From Fusobacterium mortiferum ATCC 9817 (lineage in GTDB: Bacteria > Fusobacteriota > Fusobacteriia > Fusobacteriales > Fusobacteriaceae): 38,655 bases of DNA. A model generated the notes under the pieces. It was given only the letters and a program-made list of their open reading frames with translations, had not been told where the DNA came from and searched no databases. Shown here piece after piece: positions 15,882 to 31,994 of this stretch; positions within the stretch are counted from its first letter, which is position 1, and every line of letters starts with the position of its first letter. The DNA lies in the NCBI RefSeq assembly GCF_000158195.2, contig NZ_GL987991.1, forward strand, positions 199,547 through 238,201. The letters are read 5' to 3'. The position numbers were made by a program, and so were the translations under genes.

Positions 15882-16553
15882 TTATATCATCTGTAATTGA
15901 GTATTCTCTATTCTTAGTTGATATGGTTCTATCCAATTAAAAATATATGGCATAACTGTTAGGTAATCTTTATATTTTAGTTCCACTAGACTATCAATAC
16001 CAAATCTTGATTGAATATCCTTTACTAATTCTTTCTTTAATCTTAGTTTGAAAGTTCTATTTGATATACCTGTACTTTTCATTCTTCTAAGAACTGTTTC
16101 AGTAATCTGTTCTTTTACAACTTCAACTTGGCTCCACGTCATAGGTATTTGATTTAACTCATTCTCTAGCTTTTGAATTTTAGTAAGTAACTCTCTATTC
16201 TCAATAAACTCTTGATGATAAATTAATTTTTCCATCTCTTCAAATCTATTGATATAAGCAACATTCAAATCAAAAGCTTTCTCTACTGCTGAACTATATC
16301 CTCCTATCAGTTGAGCTATTCCTTTTTTAGTGATTAGATAGTTTCTATAAGTTCTAAAATTTCCATTTACTTTATAATAACTTGGAATATAGAACTCTTT
16401 TATGAGGGCGGAACTTTCCGCTTTCGTGAATTTTCCTACATAATTATCAATTTTCTCTAATAAATCCTTATGTAATACTCCTAATTCTTCTGCTACTCTG
16501 TTACTTGTTGTAACCAAGATACCATCTACTTTTTCAACCACTACATTAAACAT
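15882..16553 (-). CDS. Rha-family phage regulator / antirepressor-type protein
   Basis: 223 residues. The N-terminal Phage_pRha-type domain (about 1-110) has VDGILVTTSNRVAEELGVLH then KDLLEKIDNYVG, and YLITKKGIAQLIGGYSS. The C-terminal part (about 130-223) resembles ORF6C-like modules attached to phage antirepressors. AGGAGGATAT precedes the ATG. Upstream on the same strand are the AbrB-like gene and a convergent small RNA, so this is placed where ant stands in phage P22 immI. Rha/Ant proteins affect lysogeny by countering repressors; the target here is unknown. Confidence 0.78.
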   Translation of the reverse strand: MFNVVVEKVDGILVTTSNRVAEELGVLHKDLLEKIDNYVGKFTKAESSALIKEFYIPSYYKVNGNFRTYRNYLITKKGIAQLIGGYSSAVEKAFDLNVAYINRFEEMEKLIYHQEFIENRELLTKIQKLENELNQIPMTWSQVEVVKEQITETVLRRMKSTGISNRTFKLRLKKELVKDIQSRFGIDSLVELKYKDYLTVMPYIFNWIEPYQLRIENTQLQMI

Positions 16554-16577
16554 TTTAATATATCCTCCTAAAAACGT

Positions 16578-16606
16578 TTGATTTTATGGAGTTAATGCAG
16601 TATAAT
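16578..16606 (+). promoter_or_regulatory. Promoter of antisense RNA 1
   Basis: TTGATT (16578-16583), 17-base spacer, TATAAT (16601-16606), reading against the Rha/AbrB transcript. The -35 box lies directly after the Rha ribosome binding site. Confidence 0.75.
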
Positions 16607-16612
16607 ATGATT

Positions 16613-16678
16613 GGCTAGGTCGTATTATACGGCTAACTCCTGTTGGAACTCGTAAGGGAACTGACAGGAGATTTTTTT
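16613..16678 (+). ncRNA. Antisense RNA 1 (sar-like, about 66 nt)
   Basis: Start inferred seven bases after the -10 box; end at the terminator CTCCTGT...ACAGGAG followed by seven T (16637-16678), which ends at the stop codon of the AbrB-like gene on the other strand. The RNA is fully complementary to the AbrB-Rha intercistronic leader. In the mRNA sense, GGAGTTA and GTATAATA pair with TATTATAC and TAACTCC to make a hairpin that spans the RNA promoter. Size and position match P22 sar RNA. Transcript not demonstrated. Confidence 0.65.
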
Positions 16679-16853
16679 ATTTCTTTTTTCTTATAATGAT
16701 TTCTTGAGTATCCTCATTTACTTCGATTTCTATTTCTCTTTCTTCTTGGTTAACTCCAATTTTATCAAGAAATGTTTTTGGGATATTAAGTTTTGGAGAA
16801 ATACTACCAGAACCACTTTTAAAGAAAGAAACTTTTAAAATCCTTTTTTCCAT
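16677..16853 (-). CDS. AbrB/MazE-like mini-repressor 1
   Basis: 58 residues (MEKRILKVSFFKSGSGSISP, then KLNIPKTFLDKIGV), the swapped-hairpin AbrB/MazE DNA-binding pattern: a strand, S/G turn, and a P-K-x-hydrophobic-x-x-hydrophobic-G helix. AAAGGAG precedes the ATG. It is paralogous to the 57-residue protein at 30582. The promoter is spanned by a 10-bp inverted repeat that is its likely operator, so autorepression is expected. No MazF-like toxin is adjacent; the downstream partner is the Rha-type gene. Confidence 0.75.
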   Translation of the reverse strand: MEKRILKVSFFKSGSGSISPKLNIPKTFLDKIGVNQEEREIEIEVNEDTQEIIIRKKK

Positions 16854-16866
16854 AAAGTTCTCCTTT

Positions 16867-16909
16867 GTCGTTCTGTTATAATTCTATCACAAGACAGAAC
16901 GACAGTCAA
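16867..16909 (-). promoter_or_regulatory. Promoter and inverted-repeat operator of mini-repressor 1
   Basis: On the minus strand TTGACT (16904-16909), 17 bases, TAGAAT (16881-16886). A perfect inverted repeat GTCGTTCTGT / ACAGAACGAC (16867-16876 and 16894-16903) flanks the -10 box, one arm in the spacer and one just downstream. Confidence 0.8.
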
Positions 16910-16956
16910 GATATTTTTATTATACTCCACTAGCTCCATAAATCTGTTTTTAGGTA

Positions 16957-17000: not shown

Positions 17001-17273
17001 TTAAAATAAATCACTATGAGTTCCTGTTCTTGATAAAGTTAGGATTAATTTATTTTTTTCAATTTTATATATTAATAACCAATCAGGACGAATATGGCAC
17101 TCCATGTATCCTATATAATTTCCAATTAATTGATGATTTCTATACTTAGCTGGTAACACTTCTTCATTTGCTAATTTTTCAACGACTTCTTGAAGAAGCT
17201 TGAGATTATATCCCCTTTTTTTTAAAAGTTTATAATCTTTATCAAAAGCACTAGTAGTTATGATTTCTAACAT
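17001..17273 (-). CDS. yafQ: YafQ-family mRNA interferase toxin
   Basis: 90 residues, RelE/ParE fold. Motifs typical of YafQ: LPAKYRNHQLIGNYIGYMEC, HIRPDWLLIYK and the terminal LTLSRTGTHSDLF; the conserved histidines (HQL, ECHIRPDW, GTHSDLF) and aspartate are those used for ribosome-dependent mRNA cleavage in the family. It follows the antitoxin gene by five bases on one transcript and has its own terminator. All key residues seem present, so it is probably active. Confidence 0.9.
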   Translation of the reverse strand: MLEIITTSAFDKDYKLLKKRGYNLKLLQEVVEKLANEEVLPAKYRNHQLIGNYIGYMECHIRPDWLLIYKIEKNKLILTLSRTGTHSDLF

Positions 17274-17278
17274 TAACT

Positions 17279-17560
17279 TTAATCCTCCTTATCAAGAGCA
17301 TCAAAAAGTTCTTTGGTATTTTTATAAGTAGGACGTTTTACTTTTCCATTGATAATATCTTCTGTTTCTTGAATAGCTTTTATAGTTTCAACATTATAGT
17401 TTTCTATTCTTGCCTCAAATGGTAATCCACCTGTTCTAAGCATAGATTTGACAAACATATTAAAAGCTGTTGACATATTTAAACCTAACTCATTACATAA
17501 CTCATTAAAGGCTTTTTTATCTTCATCATCTAATCTTACATTGATAACTGATACTCCCAT
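17279..17560 (-). CDS. dinJ: DinJ/RelB-family antitoxin
   Basis: 93 residues from ATG 17560, seven bases after GGAGG; the frame opens two codons earlier at a TTG. The N-terminal ribbon-helix-helix (VINVRLDDEDKKAFNELCNE, LGLNMSTAFNMFVK) binds DNA as a dimer; the C-terminal tail (about 55-93) would wrap the YafQ toxin. Typical type II pair: antitoxin first, toxin second, autoregulated. Confidence 0.9.
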   Translation of the reverse strand: MGVSVINVRLDDEDKKAFNELCNELGLNMSTAFNMFVKSMLRTGGLPFEARIENYNVETIKAIQETEDIINGKVKRPTYKNTKELFDALDKED

Positions 17561-17592
17561 TTTCAAACCTCCTTAATATCTTTTATATATTA

Positions 17593-17621: not shown

Positions 17622-17671
17622 GGTTATTATTTTCCTCAGTATTATTTACTTGCCAATGTCCAATAATTATC

Positions 17672-21586: not shown

Positions 21587-21617
21587 TATTATACTCTGTT
21601 TTTCAGAGAAAGTCAAT
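21587..21617 (-). promoter_or_regulatory. Leftward early promoter with operator in its spacer
   Basis: Minus strand TTGACT (21612-21617), 17-base spacer, TATAAT (21587-21592). Operator copy 2, ACTCTGTTTTTCAGAGA (21593-21609), fills the spacer, so repressor binding would block polymerase. It drives the operon from the 45-aa peptide through the exonuclease and recT. Confidence 0.8.
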
Positions 21618-21657
21618 AAATTTATTAAAAATTATCGTATTTTTATATAAAATAGAG

Positions 21658-21680
21658 TATAATACTCTTATAAACAGAGT
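21658..21680 (+). promoter_or_regulatory. Repressor-gene promoter -10 box and operator copy 3
   Basis: TATAAT at 21658-21663 followed at once by ACTCTTATAAACAGAGT (21664-21680), an imperfect copy of the operator. No clear -35 box. Suggests autoregulation of the XRE repressor. Confidence 0.6.
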
Positions 21681-23037: not shown

Positions 23038-23061
23038 ATTTGTAAAAAATTAATAATATAG

Positions 23062-23090
23062 TTGACTTACTCTGATAATCAGAGTATAAT
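23062..23090 (+). promoter_or_regulatory. Repressor-controlled promoter of the small Cro-like gene
   Basis: TTGACT (23062-23067), 17 bases, TATAAT (23085-23090). The spacer holds operator copy 4, ACTCTGATAATCAGAGT (23069-23085), the same layout as the leftward promoter. Confidence 0.8.
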
Positions 23091-23114
23091 ATAAAAAAGT
23101 TTTGGAGGTTAAAA

Positions 23115-25866: not shown

Positions 25867-25952
25867 GGAGATATTGCCTAATGGTATGGCGGTAGATTGC
25901 TAATCTACCGAGTTAATAGTTCTTATGGGTTCGAGTCCCATTATCTTCGCCA
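25867..25952 (+). tRNA. tRNA-Ser(GCU), class II
   Basis: Acceptor GGAGATA pairs with TATCTTC (one G-T), discriminator G and an encoded CCA. D arm GCC/GGC with AATGGTA loop; anticodon arm GTAGA-TTGCTAA-TCTAC, anticodon GCT; long variable arm; T arm ATGGG-TTCGAGT-CCCAT. 86 nt. It reads AGC/AGT codons. Phage-carried tRNAs are common; here it lies between lysogenic genes and the replication module. Confidence 0.88.
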
Positions 25953-25956
25953 TTAT

Positions 25957-26026
25957 GGGAATGTAGTTTAATGGAAAAACTTAAAAACTAAGGTTATAAA
26001 ATGTTGGTTCAAGTCCAGCCGTTCCC
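25957..26026 (+). pseudogene. Degenerate tRNA-like gene (glycine-type arms)
   Basis: Four bases after the tRNA-Ser. Acceptor GGGAATG pairs with CGTTCCC (one G-T), D arm GTTTAATGGAAAAAC, T arm GTTGG-TTCAAGT-CCAGC are all good and resemble tRNA-Gly. The anticodon region does not form a 5-bp stem with a seven-base loop carrying U33, and no CCA is encoded. 70 nt. Probably a decayed tRNA, or an RNA retained for its tRNA-like ends. Confidence 0.5.
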
Positions 26027-26083
26027 TTTTCATAAAACTTTCCCCCTGAATACAGTTGGCAGAGCTGTAAAACTGCCATAAAT

Positions 26084-29750: not shown

Positions 29751-30056
29751 ATGAGTTCTCAAATGAGCTTCAAAGATTTTCTAAATGGCGACTCTGTATT
29801 CTCTCATAGGGAAGAGAGCGAACTCTTACAAGCTAAGAAAAAGATTAAAGATTTCTTTTTAAATAATATTTTTGAGATTAATTTAAGTAAAAGAGAAAGG
29901 GAAGTCTATTATTTAAAAAATAAAAAGTATTTAACACATACTGAAATAGCAAAAAGGCTAGGAATTACAAGAAAAACAAGTAGAAATATTTTAAGTAATG
30001 CAAATAAGAAAATTTTAAAAATTAGTAAAAAATTTCAGGAGTATAAAAATGAGTGA
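29751..30056 (+). CDS. Sigma-70 region 4-like transcription regulator
   Basis: 101 residues. C-terminal helix-turn-helix (about 50-92): LSKREREVYYLKNKKYLTHT, EIAKRLGITRKTSRNIL, close to sigma region 4/ArpU-type late regulators. The N-terminal part has no sigma region 2. GGAGGG precedes the ATG. Probably controls middle or late phage genes; it lies upstream of the late block. Confidence 0.72.
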   Translation: MSSQMSFKDFLNGDSVFSHREESELLQAKKKIKDFFLNNIFEINLSKREREVYYLKNKKYLTHTEIAKRLGITRKTSRNILSNANKKILKISKKFQEYKNE

Positions 30057-30466: not shown

Positions 30467-30518
30467 CATATTTCCTAAAGGTATTTTTGGAGTGAATGGA
30501 GTATAATAAAAAAATATC

Positions 30519-30563
30519 TTGACAGTCAGTCACTAACGTGATATTATAAAAATATGTTAGTGA
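30519..30563 (+). promoter_or_regulatory. Promoter and inverted-repeat operator of mini-repressor 2
   Basis: TTGACA (30519-30524), 17 bases, TATTAT (30542-30547). TCACTAAC (30530-30537) and GTTAGTGA (30556-30563) flank the -10 box, the same geometry as at 16867-16909 but with a different arm sequence. The stretch ATATCTTGAC before the arms is identical in both promoters. Confidence 0.8.
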
Positions 30564-30581
30564 TTAACGAGGAGGAATACT

Positions 30582-30755
30582 GTGGAAAAGAGGACAGCAA
30601 ATGTATCTTTTTCTAAAAGCGGTAATGGGATAGGAGCCAGAATAATATTATCTGTTCCCCTTTTAAAAAAGCTTGGAATAACTCAAGAGAACAGAGAAGT
30701 TGAAGTTATTTATGATGAAGAAAAGCAAACCATTACAATAAAGAAAAAGATATAA
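30582..30755 (+). CDS. AbrB/MazE-like mini-repressor 2
   Basis: 57 residues, GTG start eight bases after GAGGAGG. MEKRTANVSFSKSGNGIGAR, then SVPLLKKLGITQENREVEVI and a basic end ITIKKKI. Paralog of the protein at 16677-16853: shared MEKR, VSF-KSG, K-GI-QE-REVEV. Expected to bind its own inverted repeat. The downstream genes are a 96-aa protein and a Rha/Ant-type regulator, separated by a convergent antisense RNA. Confidence 0.75.
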   Translation: MEKRTANVSFSKSGNGIGARIILSVPLLKKLGITQENREVEVIYDEEKQTITIKKKI

Positions 30756-30824
30756 AAAAATCCCCTTAACAATCCACTAACATGAACTGATAAGGGGTTT
30801 TTGTAGTACAATAAGTACCGTAGC
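30754..30824 (-). ncRNA. Antisense RNA 2 (sar-like, about 71 nt)
   Basis: Reads against the cassette. Ends at CCCCTTA...TAAGGGG followed by seven T on the minus strand, precisely at the mini-repressor stop codon. The same hairpin has five T on the plus strand and could partly terminate the mRNA. In the mRNA sense, GTAGTACAAT pairs with ATTGTACTAC (30802-30811 and 30831-30840). Homologous to antisense RNA 1 in promoter and 5' region but with a different loop. Not experimentally shown. Confidence 0.65.
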
Positions 30825-30830
30825 AAGTAT

Positions 30831-30859
30831 ATTGTACTACATTAACTCCAAAAATACAA
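30831..30859 (-). promoter_or_regulatory. Promoter of antisense RNA 2
   Basis: Minus strand TTGTAT (30854-30859), 17 bases, TACAAT (30831-30836). Aligns base for base with the promoter of antisense RNA 1, sharing GGAGTTAATG in the spacer; both boxes are weaker. Confidence 0.6.
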
Positions 30860-30878
30860 GTTTTTAGGAGGAAAAAAT

Positions 30879-31169
30879 ATGCTAAGTGAACAATCAAGAG
30901 GAGTAATTGAGTTTATTGATGAGTGTAGAGCTCAAGGTATGATAAAAGATGAATTATACCTAAAAGAAGAAGAGATGTGGAGAACTTTATCAGATTTAGA
31001 AGTAGTAATGAAAAGAAGTCCAGAGGATAGAGCACTATACTGGAAACTTGAAACATTAATATCTGAAGCTATCGTTCTTGTAAAAGATACTTACTTTGAG
31101 TATGGAGAAAACTTTGAAAGCACTCAAATGAATAAACTCATAGCAAAGGTAAATAAGGAGGCAATGTAG
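30879..31169 (+). CDS. Acidic helical protein (96 aa) in cassette 2
   Basis: TTTAGGAGG precedes the ATG. Helical: GVIEFIDECRAQGMIKDELY, EEMWRTLSDLEVVMKRSPED, RALYWKLETLISEAIVLVKD. One base before the Rha/Ant-type gene, so cotranslated with it. No counterpart in cassette 1. Function unknown. Confidence 0.65.
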   Translation: MLSEQSRGVIEFIDECRAQGMIKDELYLKEEEMWRTLSDLEVVMKRSPEDRALYWKLETLISEAIVLVKDTYFEYGENFESTQMNKLIAKVNKEAM

Positions 31170-31170
31170 T

Positions 31171-31959
31171 ATGAATGATTTGATGGTAAGAGAGAAAAAA
31201 GAAGAAATAACAAGTCTTGAACTTGTAGAACAGATAAATGTATTTAGAAAACAAGAAGGAAAGAAAACAGAATTACAACATTTTAATTTGTTGGCTGTAA
31301 TCCGTGATGAATTTGAAGAAGAAATTAACGCCCTAAAAATTCAAGCCGTTGAATATAGAGATAAAAAGGGAGAATTAAGACCTATGTATATATTAACTCT
31401 TAACCAAGCTAAACAAGTTTTAATGAGAGAAAGTAAATTTGTAAGAAAAGCAGTTATACACTATATAGAAGAATTAGAAAAACAACTTGGAACAATAGTT
31501 AGTTATGAAGACAGATTAAAACTAGGCTTATTTTCAAAAGACCCTGAAGTTGTAGCTCGTTCTCATAAAGCTTTACTAGAATTAGAGTTAAAACCTTTAA
31601 AAGAAGAAATTGAGAAAAAGACAAAAGAAATAGAGTATAAAGAAGATGTAATTATTGGCTTAACTGATAAAATTGATTTAATGGATATGAGACAAATTTT
31701 AAATACAGTAGTTAGATATAAAGGAGCTAACTATCAAGAAAGATGGAGATTATTGTATTTTGAATTTGAAAAGAAATATCATCTTGATTTGAAAAGAAGA
31801 ATAAATAGTTACAATAAAAATCATAAACCCAAACTGAAAAATAAGTTAGATTATATTGATATAGAAATGAAAAAACTTCCTCAATTATATGAAATAGCTT
31901 GTAAATTATTTGAAGGCGATATTAATCAAATAGTAGAAAATTATAAAAAAGTATGTTAA
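31171..31959 (+). CDS. Rha/Ant-type phage regulator 2
   Basis: 262 residues. The N-terminal domain (about 10-105) has the Rha pattern ITSLELVEQINVFRKQEGKK, YRDKKGELRPMYILTLNQAK, VLMRESKFVRKAVIHYIEEL. A coiled coil follows (about 125-170), then a basic C-terminal domain (175-262). It occupies the antirepressor position of cassette 2. Likely acts on a repressor or host regulator; target unknown. Confidence 0.75.
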   Translation: MNDLMVREKKEEITSLELVEQINVFRKQEGKKTELQHFNLLAVIRDEFEEEINALKIQAVEYRDKKGELRPMYILTLNQAKQVLMRESKFVRKAVIHYIEELEKQLGTIVSYEDRLKLGLFSKDPEVVARSHKALLELELKPLKEEIEKKTKEIEYKEDVIIGLTDKIDLMDMRQILNTVVRYKGANYQERWRLLYFEFEKKYHLDLKRRINSYNKNHKPKLKNKLDYIDIEMKKLPQLYEIACKLFEGDINQIVENYKKVC

Positions 31960-31966
31960 TAAAAAA

Positions 31967-31994
31967 ATCCTCAGTTATTACTGGAGATTTTTTT
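31967..31994 (+). terminator. Terminator closing cassette 2
   Basis: ATCCTCAGT pairs with ACTGGAGAT (one mismatch, one G-T), then seven T. Related to the cassette 1 terminator. Confidence 0.75.

Follow-up and report, generated by a model that had tools for sequence, protein, structure and literature searches.

How can an antirepressor gene sit inside an active operon of a prophage and go unread, and why would one prophage hold several modules built around such a gene? Both questions are raised by a stretch of 38,655 nucleotides (nt) from Fusobacterium mortiferum ATCC 9817 (contig NZ_GL987991.1, positions 199,547 to 238,201; hereafter the window), in which one prophage carries two full cassettes of repressor gene, antisense RNA gene and antirepressor-type genes. 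As the initial annotation of this DNA had proposed, one lies in the leftward early operon (cassette 1, 16950-15882, minus strand) and the other just ahead of the late genes, shortly before terminase (cassette 2, 30519-31994, plus strand). We propose, at a probability of roughly 0.6, that each cassette is a flip-flop RNA switch combined with an autorepressor, choosing between translation of the repressor and translation of the antirepressor.

Layout and proposed operation of the cassettes

Cassette 2, whose coordinates were read from the sequence by eye, consists of a promoter in an inverted-repeat operator, a gene for an AbrB-like protein of 57 amino acids (aa), an antisense RNA gene of about 70 nt and antirepressor-type genes. 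The operator arms, TCACTAAC (30530-30537) and GTTAGTGA (30556-30563), enclose the -10 element of a putatively strong promoter (30519-30547, plus strand; TTGACA at 30519-30524, 17-nt spacing, TATTAT at 30542-30547). With transcription predicted to start between the arms, the 5' untranslated region (UTR; 30553-30581, plus strand) would hold the right arm only, together with the repressor's ribosome binding site (RBS; AGGAGG, 30570-30575). The mini-repressor gene (30582-30755, plus strand, GTG start, family phrog_2329) encodes a protein of predicted AbrB/MazE fold that would bind its own operator and shut the promoter. Hairpin T (30762-30797) follows, which on the minus strand is the terminator of the antisense RNA, with U's at 30761-30756 after the hairpin, and which on the sense strand is made up of segment 1 (CCCC, 30762-30765), a loop complementary to the 5' UTR (duplex -13.1) and segment 2 (GGGG, 30794-30797). 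Hairpin S (30803-30840, plus strand) presents a loop that is the predicted target of the antisense RNA 5' end, and in hairpin Q (30845-30871, plus strand) segment 3 (ACTCC, 30845-30849) pairs with the Shine-Dalgarno sequence (SD; AGGAGG, 30866-30871) and hides it. The antisense promoter (TTGTAT-17-TACAAT, 30831-30859, minus strand) has segment 3, on the sense strand, as its spacer, and the antisense RNA (30756-30824, minus strand; z -5.7) is predicted to start near 30824; the region is matched by a covariance model of hairpins T, S and Q, built from 19 aligned cassettes (alignment A4), each covering the sense strand between the stop codon of the repressor and the SD. Upstream of the cassette's own promoter lies an inverted copy of the stretch from the right arm of S to the SD, here called LEFT (30473-30508, plus strand), which is present only in read-through transcripts.

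Behind the switch of cassette 2 are a 96-aa protein (30879-31169, plus strand), which is the first gene of several cassettes, and a 262-aa Rha/Ant-like protein (31171-31959, plus strand) that matches the phrog_63 anti-repressor family at E=6.7e-7 and scores below cut-off with Pfam Rha (E=1.7e-4; Phage_pRha 22.6 bits, cut-off 29.9), followed by a terminator at about 31966-31991 (plus strand). The order is repeated in cassette 1, on the minus strand, with LEFT at 16918-16954, a promoter (TTGACT-17-TAGAAT, 16881-16909) with operator arms TGTCGTTCTGT/ACAGAACGACA (16904-16894 and 16876-16866), a 58-aa AbrB-like mini-repressor (16677-16853) and the RNA switch at 16554-16676 (T 16670-16637, S 16630-16600, segment 3 16592-16588, SD 16569-16564), which scores 104.5 bits in the covariance model, being itself among the training sequences. 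Its antisense gene (16578-16676, plus strand) has a promoter with TTGATT at 16578-16583 and TATAAT at 16601-16606 and an RNA at about 16613-16676, and the downstream gene (15882-16553, minus strand) encodes a 223-aa antirepressor-type protein of the Rha family that passes the Phage_pRha cut-off of 29.9 with 56.4 bits.

In an mRNA started at the cassette's own promoter, the 5' UTR would pair with the loop of T, just 3' of the repressor stop, masking the repressor RBS and opening T; the freed segment 2 would then pair with segment 3 and keep it off the SD, so that the antirepressor operon would be translated. The antisense RNA, presumably constitutive, would start just beyond segment 3 and end in T, with a free 5' end that matches the S loop. 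Once bound, it would tie up T, segment 2 and the S loop, so that segment 3 would lock the SD while the 5' UTR would be released and the repressor made, which in turn would shut the promoter. In read-through transcripts from upstream, the two operator arms would form a helix of their own in place of pairing with T, LEFT where present (as it often is) would pair with the sequence leading up to the SD, and little antirepressor is predicted to result. The net outcome would be a brief pulse of antirepressor from DNA that has just become active and is still unrepressed, followed by a stable OFF state that tolerates a place inside an operon; by analogy with P22, we infer that the pulse would serve entry or induction. 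Opening of T by ribosomes at the repressor stop codon may act as well. Such a scheme offers a testable account of an antirepressor gene that sits unread in an active operon.

Comparative evidence for the pairings

The pairings, and the strand on which each is selected, were assessed by comparing cassettes across Fusobacteriota, with 32-35 distinct cassettes per comparison. Near-identical cassettes (L008, L010, L026, L048, G010) and those with an absent or weak mini-repressor (G019, G020, G030, G033, G071, G076, G077b) were left out of the collection, matches with no upstream open reading frame (ORF) lay outside the data set (G009, G056b, G037b, G088a, G090a, G090c), and cassettes whose promoter, UTR or RBS could not be placed were omitted from the individual sets, leaving 33 for the LEFT permutation screen, 32 for the pairing of UTR and T, 31 for the foreign-UTR test and 30 for folding of full mRNAs. 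Within the stems, 38 double-change cells were counted against 13.9 after shuffling, and 13 pairs against 6.5.

Complementarity between the 5' UTR and the T loop was far stronger within cassettes than between them, with own duplexes at -11.08 and permuted ones at -7.62 (s.d. 0.40; 0/20000 permutations), and 0/20000 was again obtained in each of the non-redundant subsets of 27, 21 and 13. Four cassettes scored later, nominally held out although they had been read before these tests, gave own duplexes between -10.8 and -12.3, where foreign T loops averaged -6.8 to -8.1, and 9, 1, 3 and 6 of 32 foreign loops were equally good. In the opposite orientation the longest match was not significant (1357/20000) and the duplex weakly so (164/20000). 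These orientation controls bear on a different explanation, in which an operator-like stretch in T is a protein site where the repressor would bind to regulate the antisense gene. Words from the operator region do recur in a cassette's own T (mean 7.06 vs 5.87, 0/20000), but matches of the loop are confined to the RNA-pairing orientation, several of them extend beyond the operator as far as the RBS, and in cassette 1 it is the RBS, not the operator, that is matched. After the controls this very improbable reading was replaced by pairing with the 5' UTR.

Pairing of segments 2 and 3 showed a similar dependence on the cassette's own partner (-10.64 vs -6.99, s.d. 0.41, 0/20000) in 35 of 42 cassettes, four having no clear SD and three being near-copies, with positions of the S arm chosen by hand for three. 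The signal persisted when bases adjacent to S were removed (-6.38 vs -4.95, 0/20000) and when the set was thinned to 7 rows (5/20000). Because segment 3 lies upstream of the antisense start, this helix can act only in the mRNA. The initial annotation had treated the GGAG/CTCC of segment 3 as promoter sequence only, a view that has to be given up, as on the sense strand it contributes one side to each of two RNA helices that compete.

The antisense-promoter sequence shared by the two cassettes, which had been pointed out earlier, is borne out by the 20-mer GGAGTTAATGnAGTATAATA, which occurs four times in the window where 0.04 matches would be expected. Two of the four are the antisense promoters, and the other two are inverted copies 5' of the cassettes' own promoters (30489-30508, plus strand; 16937-16918, minus strand) that had been missed. 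Duplexes of LEFT with its own right region reached -36.7 kcal/mol, with 0/500 shuffles as good, in both window cassettes. Across 15 rows, permutation gave -35.6 vs -23.7 (0/20000), and thinning gave 0/20000 with 9 rows, 175/20000 with 5 and 3289/20000 with 3. This permutation preceded an exchange in the LEFT set of 15, in which G074 was removed and cassette 2 added, the dinucleotide shuffle of cassette 2 (26/200) having probably fallen back to the original sequence while the mononucleotide shuffle gave 0/500.

To separate the strands we used the asymmetry of wobble pairs, since a helix selected as RNA is expected to retain G.U pairs on the strand in which it forms and to be poor in A.C there, and the aligner treats both strands alike. 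On the sense strand T showed 44 A.C against 2 G.U (p=3e-11; by cluster 11 vs 1, p=0.006), and for this reason T is taken, on comparative grounds, to be selected in the antisense RNA. The helix of segments 2 and 3 showed the reverse, with 24 G.U against 7 A.C (p=0.003; by cluster 9 vs 1, p=0.02), as did LEFT, with 28 G.U against 3 A.C (p=5e-6; by cluster 6/6, p=0.03); because G.U exceeds A.C on the sense strand, the alignments indicate that both pairings are selected in the mRNA. The strict region of the segment 2 and 3 helix gave 8 vs 1 (by cluster 4 vs 1, not significant), and S gave 3 G.U and 3 A.C. Clusters were formed by single linkage, one of them holding 18 of 35. The test parts RNA-level from DNA-level function without experiment and can be reused elsewhere.

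The same counts decide against reading LEFT and the antisense promoter as terminal inverted repeats bounding a small mobile element or invertible segment, or as two copies of one promoter. Inverted copies of about 35-40 nt do flank the gene, as such an element would require, but the G.U bias of their mismatches is unexpected of DNA-level repeats or promoters, TATAAT is missing from several LEFT copies, the unit has no recombinase associated with it, and the repeat includes the downstream SD. This reading was rejected on the sense-strand bias, and we rate it as the least probable of those considered.

Predicted folding states

The two states are predictions from thermodynamic folding. In full mRNAs from the own promoters of 30 cassettes, addition of the antisense RNA raised mean exposure of the repressor RBS from 0.36 to 0.70 and lowered that of the SD from 0.48 to 0.15. 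Cassette 2 followed this pattern (RBS 0.22 and SD 0.96 alone; 0.72 and 0.21 with antisense), and cassette 1 gave 0.23 and 0.71 as naked mRNA, 0.30 and 0.38 when the ORF was kept unfolded, and 0.43 and 0.03 with antisense. The antisense RNA of the window cassettes is accordingly modelled as a repressor of antirepressor synthesis. The SD was free at 0.14 in the intergenic region alone, 0.51 with the cassette's own UTR and 0.27 with foreign UTRs (0/20000). When the left operator arm was added in the 15 LEFT cassettes, UTR pairing with T fell from 7.4 to 1.8 bp and SD exposure from 0.46 to 0.29; read-through in cassettes that have no LEFT also lowered SD exposure, from 0.55 to 0.21.

Another account is a plain module like immI of phage P22 with translational coupling, in which synthesis of the antirepressor accompanies that of the repressor: ribosomes at the repressor stop would open T so that segments 2 and 3 pair and the SD is exposed, and the antisense RNA would block this. 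Plasmid replication control by an antisense RNA and translation of a leader is a parallel for such coupling. Segment 1 begins 3-6 nt after the repressor stop in 19/19 aligned cassettes, the segment 2 and 3 pairing is under selection, and folding of the intergenic region in 38 cassettes gives a mean SD exposure of 0.13 by itself, 0.41 with a ribosome masking the first 12 nt and 0.11 with antisense bound. Coupling leaves unexplained, however, both the complementarity of the T loop to the repressor's own 5' UTR and the greater opening of the SD by own than by foreign UTRs. As the sole explanation we consider it unlikely, though it deserves more weight than any other rival, and the coupling and UTR routes are compatible with each other.

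Several points weigh against the flip-flop switch. Thermodynamic folding leaves aside ribosomes and co-transcriptional order, and the same calculations predict the ribosome-at-stop route to opening T. Little or no pairing of UTR with T, or opening of the SD, was seen in some foldings of L007, L023, L053, L070, L072, G073a and G085a, and own UTR duplexes with T were weak in L091, L092, L098 and G001. Co-variation between segment 3 and the SD was weak (-6.99 vs -6.54, 322/20000), in part because the SD hardly varies. In full read-through transcripts with LEFT, SD exposure was 0.26 and shuffled LEFT sequences did equally well (p=0.89), so that a role of LEFT as a lock on the SD is unsupported at the SD itself; over the wider start region the effect was modest (0.44 to 0.36, p=0.035, 11/15). 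A terminator stood upstream in 2/15 LEFT cassettes and 8/19 others, a trend only (Fisher p=0.13), and the idea that insulation is provided by a terminator or by LEFT but never by both, which had looked perfect by eye, was dropped after this count. The LEFT pairing is thus well supported as selected, and its effect on translation is weakly predicted.

Repressors, operators and the origin of the two cassettes

Pfam MazE matched the cassette 1 repressor at 16.7 bits (cut-off 24.7) and gave no match for that of cassette 2, for which an AlphaFold model (mean pLDDT 87) has the order E-E-H-E-E. MazE/AbrB N-domains were among the top matches of this model in the PDB, at TM about 0.5, and none of the matches was significant (no E below 0.4). 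The window repressors are AbrB-like and not ribbon-helix-helix (RHH) proteins, which occur only in other cassettes. Each presumed operator is an inverted repeat beyond chance (0/200 shuffles as good in cassette 1; p=0.03 by shuffling in cassette 2), and across the family operator sequence tracks repressor clade.

These observations bear on whether the AbrB-like protein could be a SymE-like toxin with the antisense RNA as its type I antitoxin. Relatives are annotated as 'toxin SymE' in phiFN37 and JD-Fnp2, and SymE/SymR, as outlined in the sections of PMC1891008 concerned with it, likewise combines a small AbrB-fold protein with an antisense RNA. SymR, however, overlaps symE and has its promoter inside that ORF, whereas the antisense gene here lies wholly behind the repressor ORF and faces the leader of the next gene. 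Each ORF moreover has an inverted-repeat operator over its own promoter, with a sequence that follows the repressor clade, and RHH proteins replace the AbrB-like one in other cassettes. A toxin-antitoxin function is therefore highly unlikely.

The mini-repressors of the window are homologous, as stated earlier (46% identity, E=1e-14, both phrog_2329), and the operators of the two cassettes do have distinct half-sites. The claim that their terminators are related stands for place and form; little sequence is common to them. Predicted binding agrees with the absence of RNA cross-talk suggested by the differing loops, the first 16 nt of each antisense RNA reaching -29.9/-26.5 kcal/mol on the cassette's own S hairpin and -7.9/-7.9 on the other's. 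Proteins directly behind the two switches showed no homology to each other by BLASTP. The two cassettes are therefore predicted to have different specificities and to act without cross-talk.

Duplication followed by divergence within the prophage, as put forward in the initial annotation, does not agree with the tree of 36 repressors, in which that of cassette 1 groups with L053, L070 and L091 and that of cassette 2 with L007 and G107b. The two were united in 0% of 200 bootstrap trees (58 columns, many forks unresolved). The right operator arm AACAGAACGACA is common to cassette 1, L091, L070 and L053, and the cassette 2 arms are shared with G107b and partly with L007. Because the tree splits them and operator half-sites follow the clades, the window cassettes look like separately acquired members of one old family. 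There are six phrog_2329 matches in the host genome, which also has a third full cassette, L002, at another place; L002 is nearer to cassette 1 in predicted RNA cross-talk (-17.2, -14.8). The 90 nt before the cassette 1 promoter recur as a near-identical stretch upstream of the L002 cassette, which suggests shared descent of this region.

A family of related cassettes across Fusobacteriota

The covariance model found matches in 33/98 Fusobacteriota genomes at E<=0.01. Among 34 matches examined, with protein labels judged by eye and one match (G010) being a near-copy of a training sequence, an intact AbrB-like ORF immediately precedes 15, a broken one 3 and an RHH-like ORF 7, and the remaining 9 follow neither kind. 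Six of the RHH-like proteins were scanned; two pass the Pfam RHH cut-off and the others are weak. Since the matches sit behind ORFs of either type, the RNA unit appears to occur with two repressor folds. The 61 first or second downstream proteins gave 33 matches to four families of antirepressor-type domains (Rha 17, Bro-N 9, AntA 5, P22_AR_N 2) and one to OMP. A protein of about 40 aa recurs as the first gene behind the switch in L084, L087, L091, L098, L002 and L119, with no family assignment in the tables inspected. Larger or similar cassettes in L096, L097, L099 and L124 stand ahead of outer-membrane or secreted-looking proteins and not of antirepressors.

It had been stated that no phage with two such modules was known. 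Of 15 phage records tested, 13 match the model and four hold two or three separate cassettes (G103, G104, G107 in tandem and G108 with three), a count from which opposite-strand matches at coinciding positions and a weak second match in G109 are excluded. G073 has two cassettes 29 kb apart, which may lie in one prophage. The family would offer many natural, probably orthogonal switch pairs. A broader suggestion, which we make tentatively and at less than even odds, is that the portable part is an mRNA that senses its own transcription start and the level of its antisense RNA and makes either repressor or antirepressor, not both. Phages would plug into it AbrB or RHH folds and Rha, Bro-N, AntA or P22_AR antirepressors. 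They would carry two or three such units that do not respond to one another and serve as parallel routes out of lysogeny, which would give a reason for several modules in one prophage.

Relation to known systems

The cassettes resemble P22 immI (arc-sar-ant) in having a small autorepressor gene, an antisense RNA gene in the gap and then an antirepressor gene. Arc has a ribbon-helix-helix fold, and in some Fusobacteriota relatives the repressor is RHH-like as well. As in the P22 sequence (X01916), the antisense terminator, here hairpin T, starts directly or a few nt behind the repressor stop. The passages of PMC12197685 on these regulators describe sar as repressing ant by pairing with ant mRNA and the c4 RNA of P1/P7 as blocking antirepressor synthesis near a ribosome binding site. 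The likeness to c4, as drawn from this description, extends to a small RNA directed against antirepressor synthesis; those passages do not describe c4 as sharing its switch with a repressor gene. In P22 the arc-ant gap is 68 nt and has no S or Q hairpin, the arc 5' UTR is no more complementary to the gap than shuffled sequence (391/500 equally good), and homology of the RNA was not found on comparison with X01916. The window cassettes differ further in their AbrB fold and LEFT element, and no mnt-like divergent gene was seen next to them. Because repressor fold and RNA architecture differ, the unit is set apart from P22 immI as one of immI-like layout. P22 immI, known from one phage group, is a standard textbook example of antisense control. 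The family described here is large and deeply diverged and belongs to a different phylum, and sequence comparison supports pairings by which translation of repressor and of antirepressor would exclude each other.

Replication control of IncIalpha/IncB plasmids (Inc RNA, repY/repZ, ColIb-P9) also uses an antisense RNA directed at a loop, together with helices that compete for the surroundings of an SD and a coupling to the ORF before it. It relies on a pseudoknot and a leader peptide, whereas here the upstream ORF is the repressor and its 5' UTR would be the activating arm. Long-range pairing of the mRNA 5' end together with an antisense RNA is found in hok/sok, and in IS10, with RNA-OUT, inverted ends hide an SD in read-through RNA. 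The window cassettes have no toxin or transposase, and they join both features with a DNA operator. No description of the unit was found in the literature searched, which is weak evidence of absence, most subscription journals lying outside its coverage. The portions of Makarova 2009 and of the FNU1 paper that deal with antirepressors mention no RNA switch.

Neighbouring features of the window

In an Rfam scan of the window, gathering scores were reached by two tRNAs only, and tRNA genes Ser-GCT and Leu-TAA lie adjacent inside the prophage (25867-26027, plus strand). Inverted 42-nt repeats with CTCTGAnnnTCAGAG-like cores (21587-21628 and 23050-23091), near a CI-like gene at 21679, are probable operators of the main repressor. 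Shortly 5' of cassette 2 a sigma-70 region-4-like protein is encoded (29751-30056, plus strand), a possible late regulator. Directly 5' of cassette 1 lies a RelB/YafQ-type toxin-antitoxin pair (17001-17566, minus strand), and the motif GGACATTGGCAAGTAAATAATACTGAGG occurs at 17634-17661 (minus strand; 0 expected), with a similar motif 46-86 nt 5' of the promoter in 11/33 cassettes.

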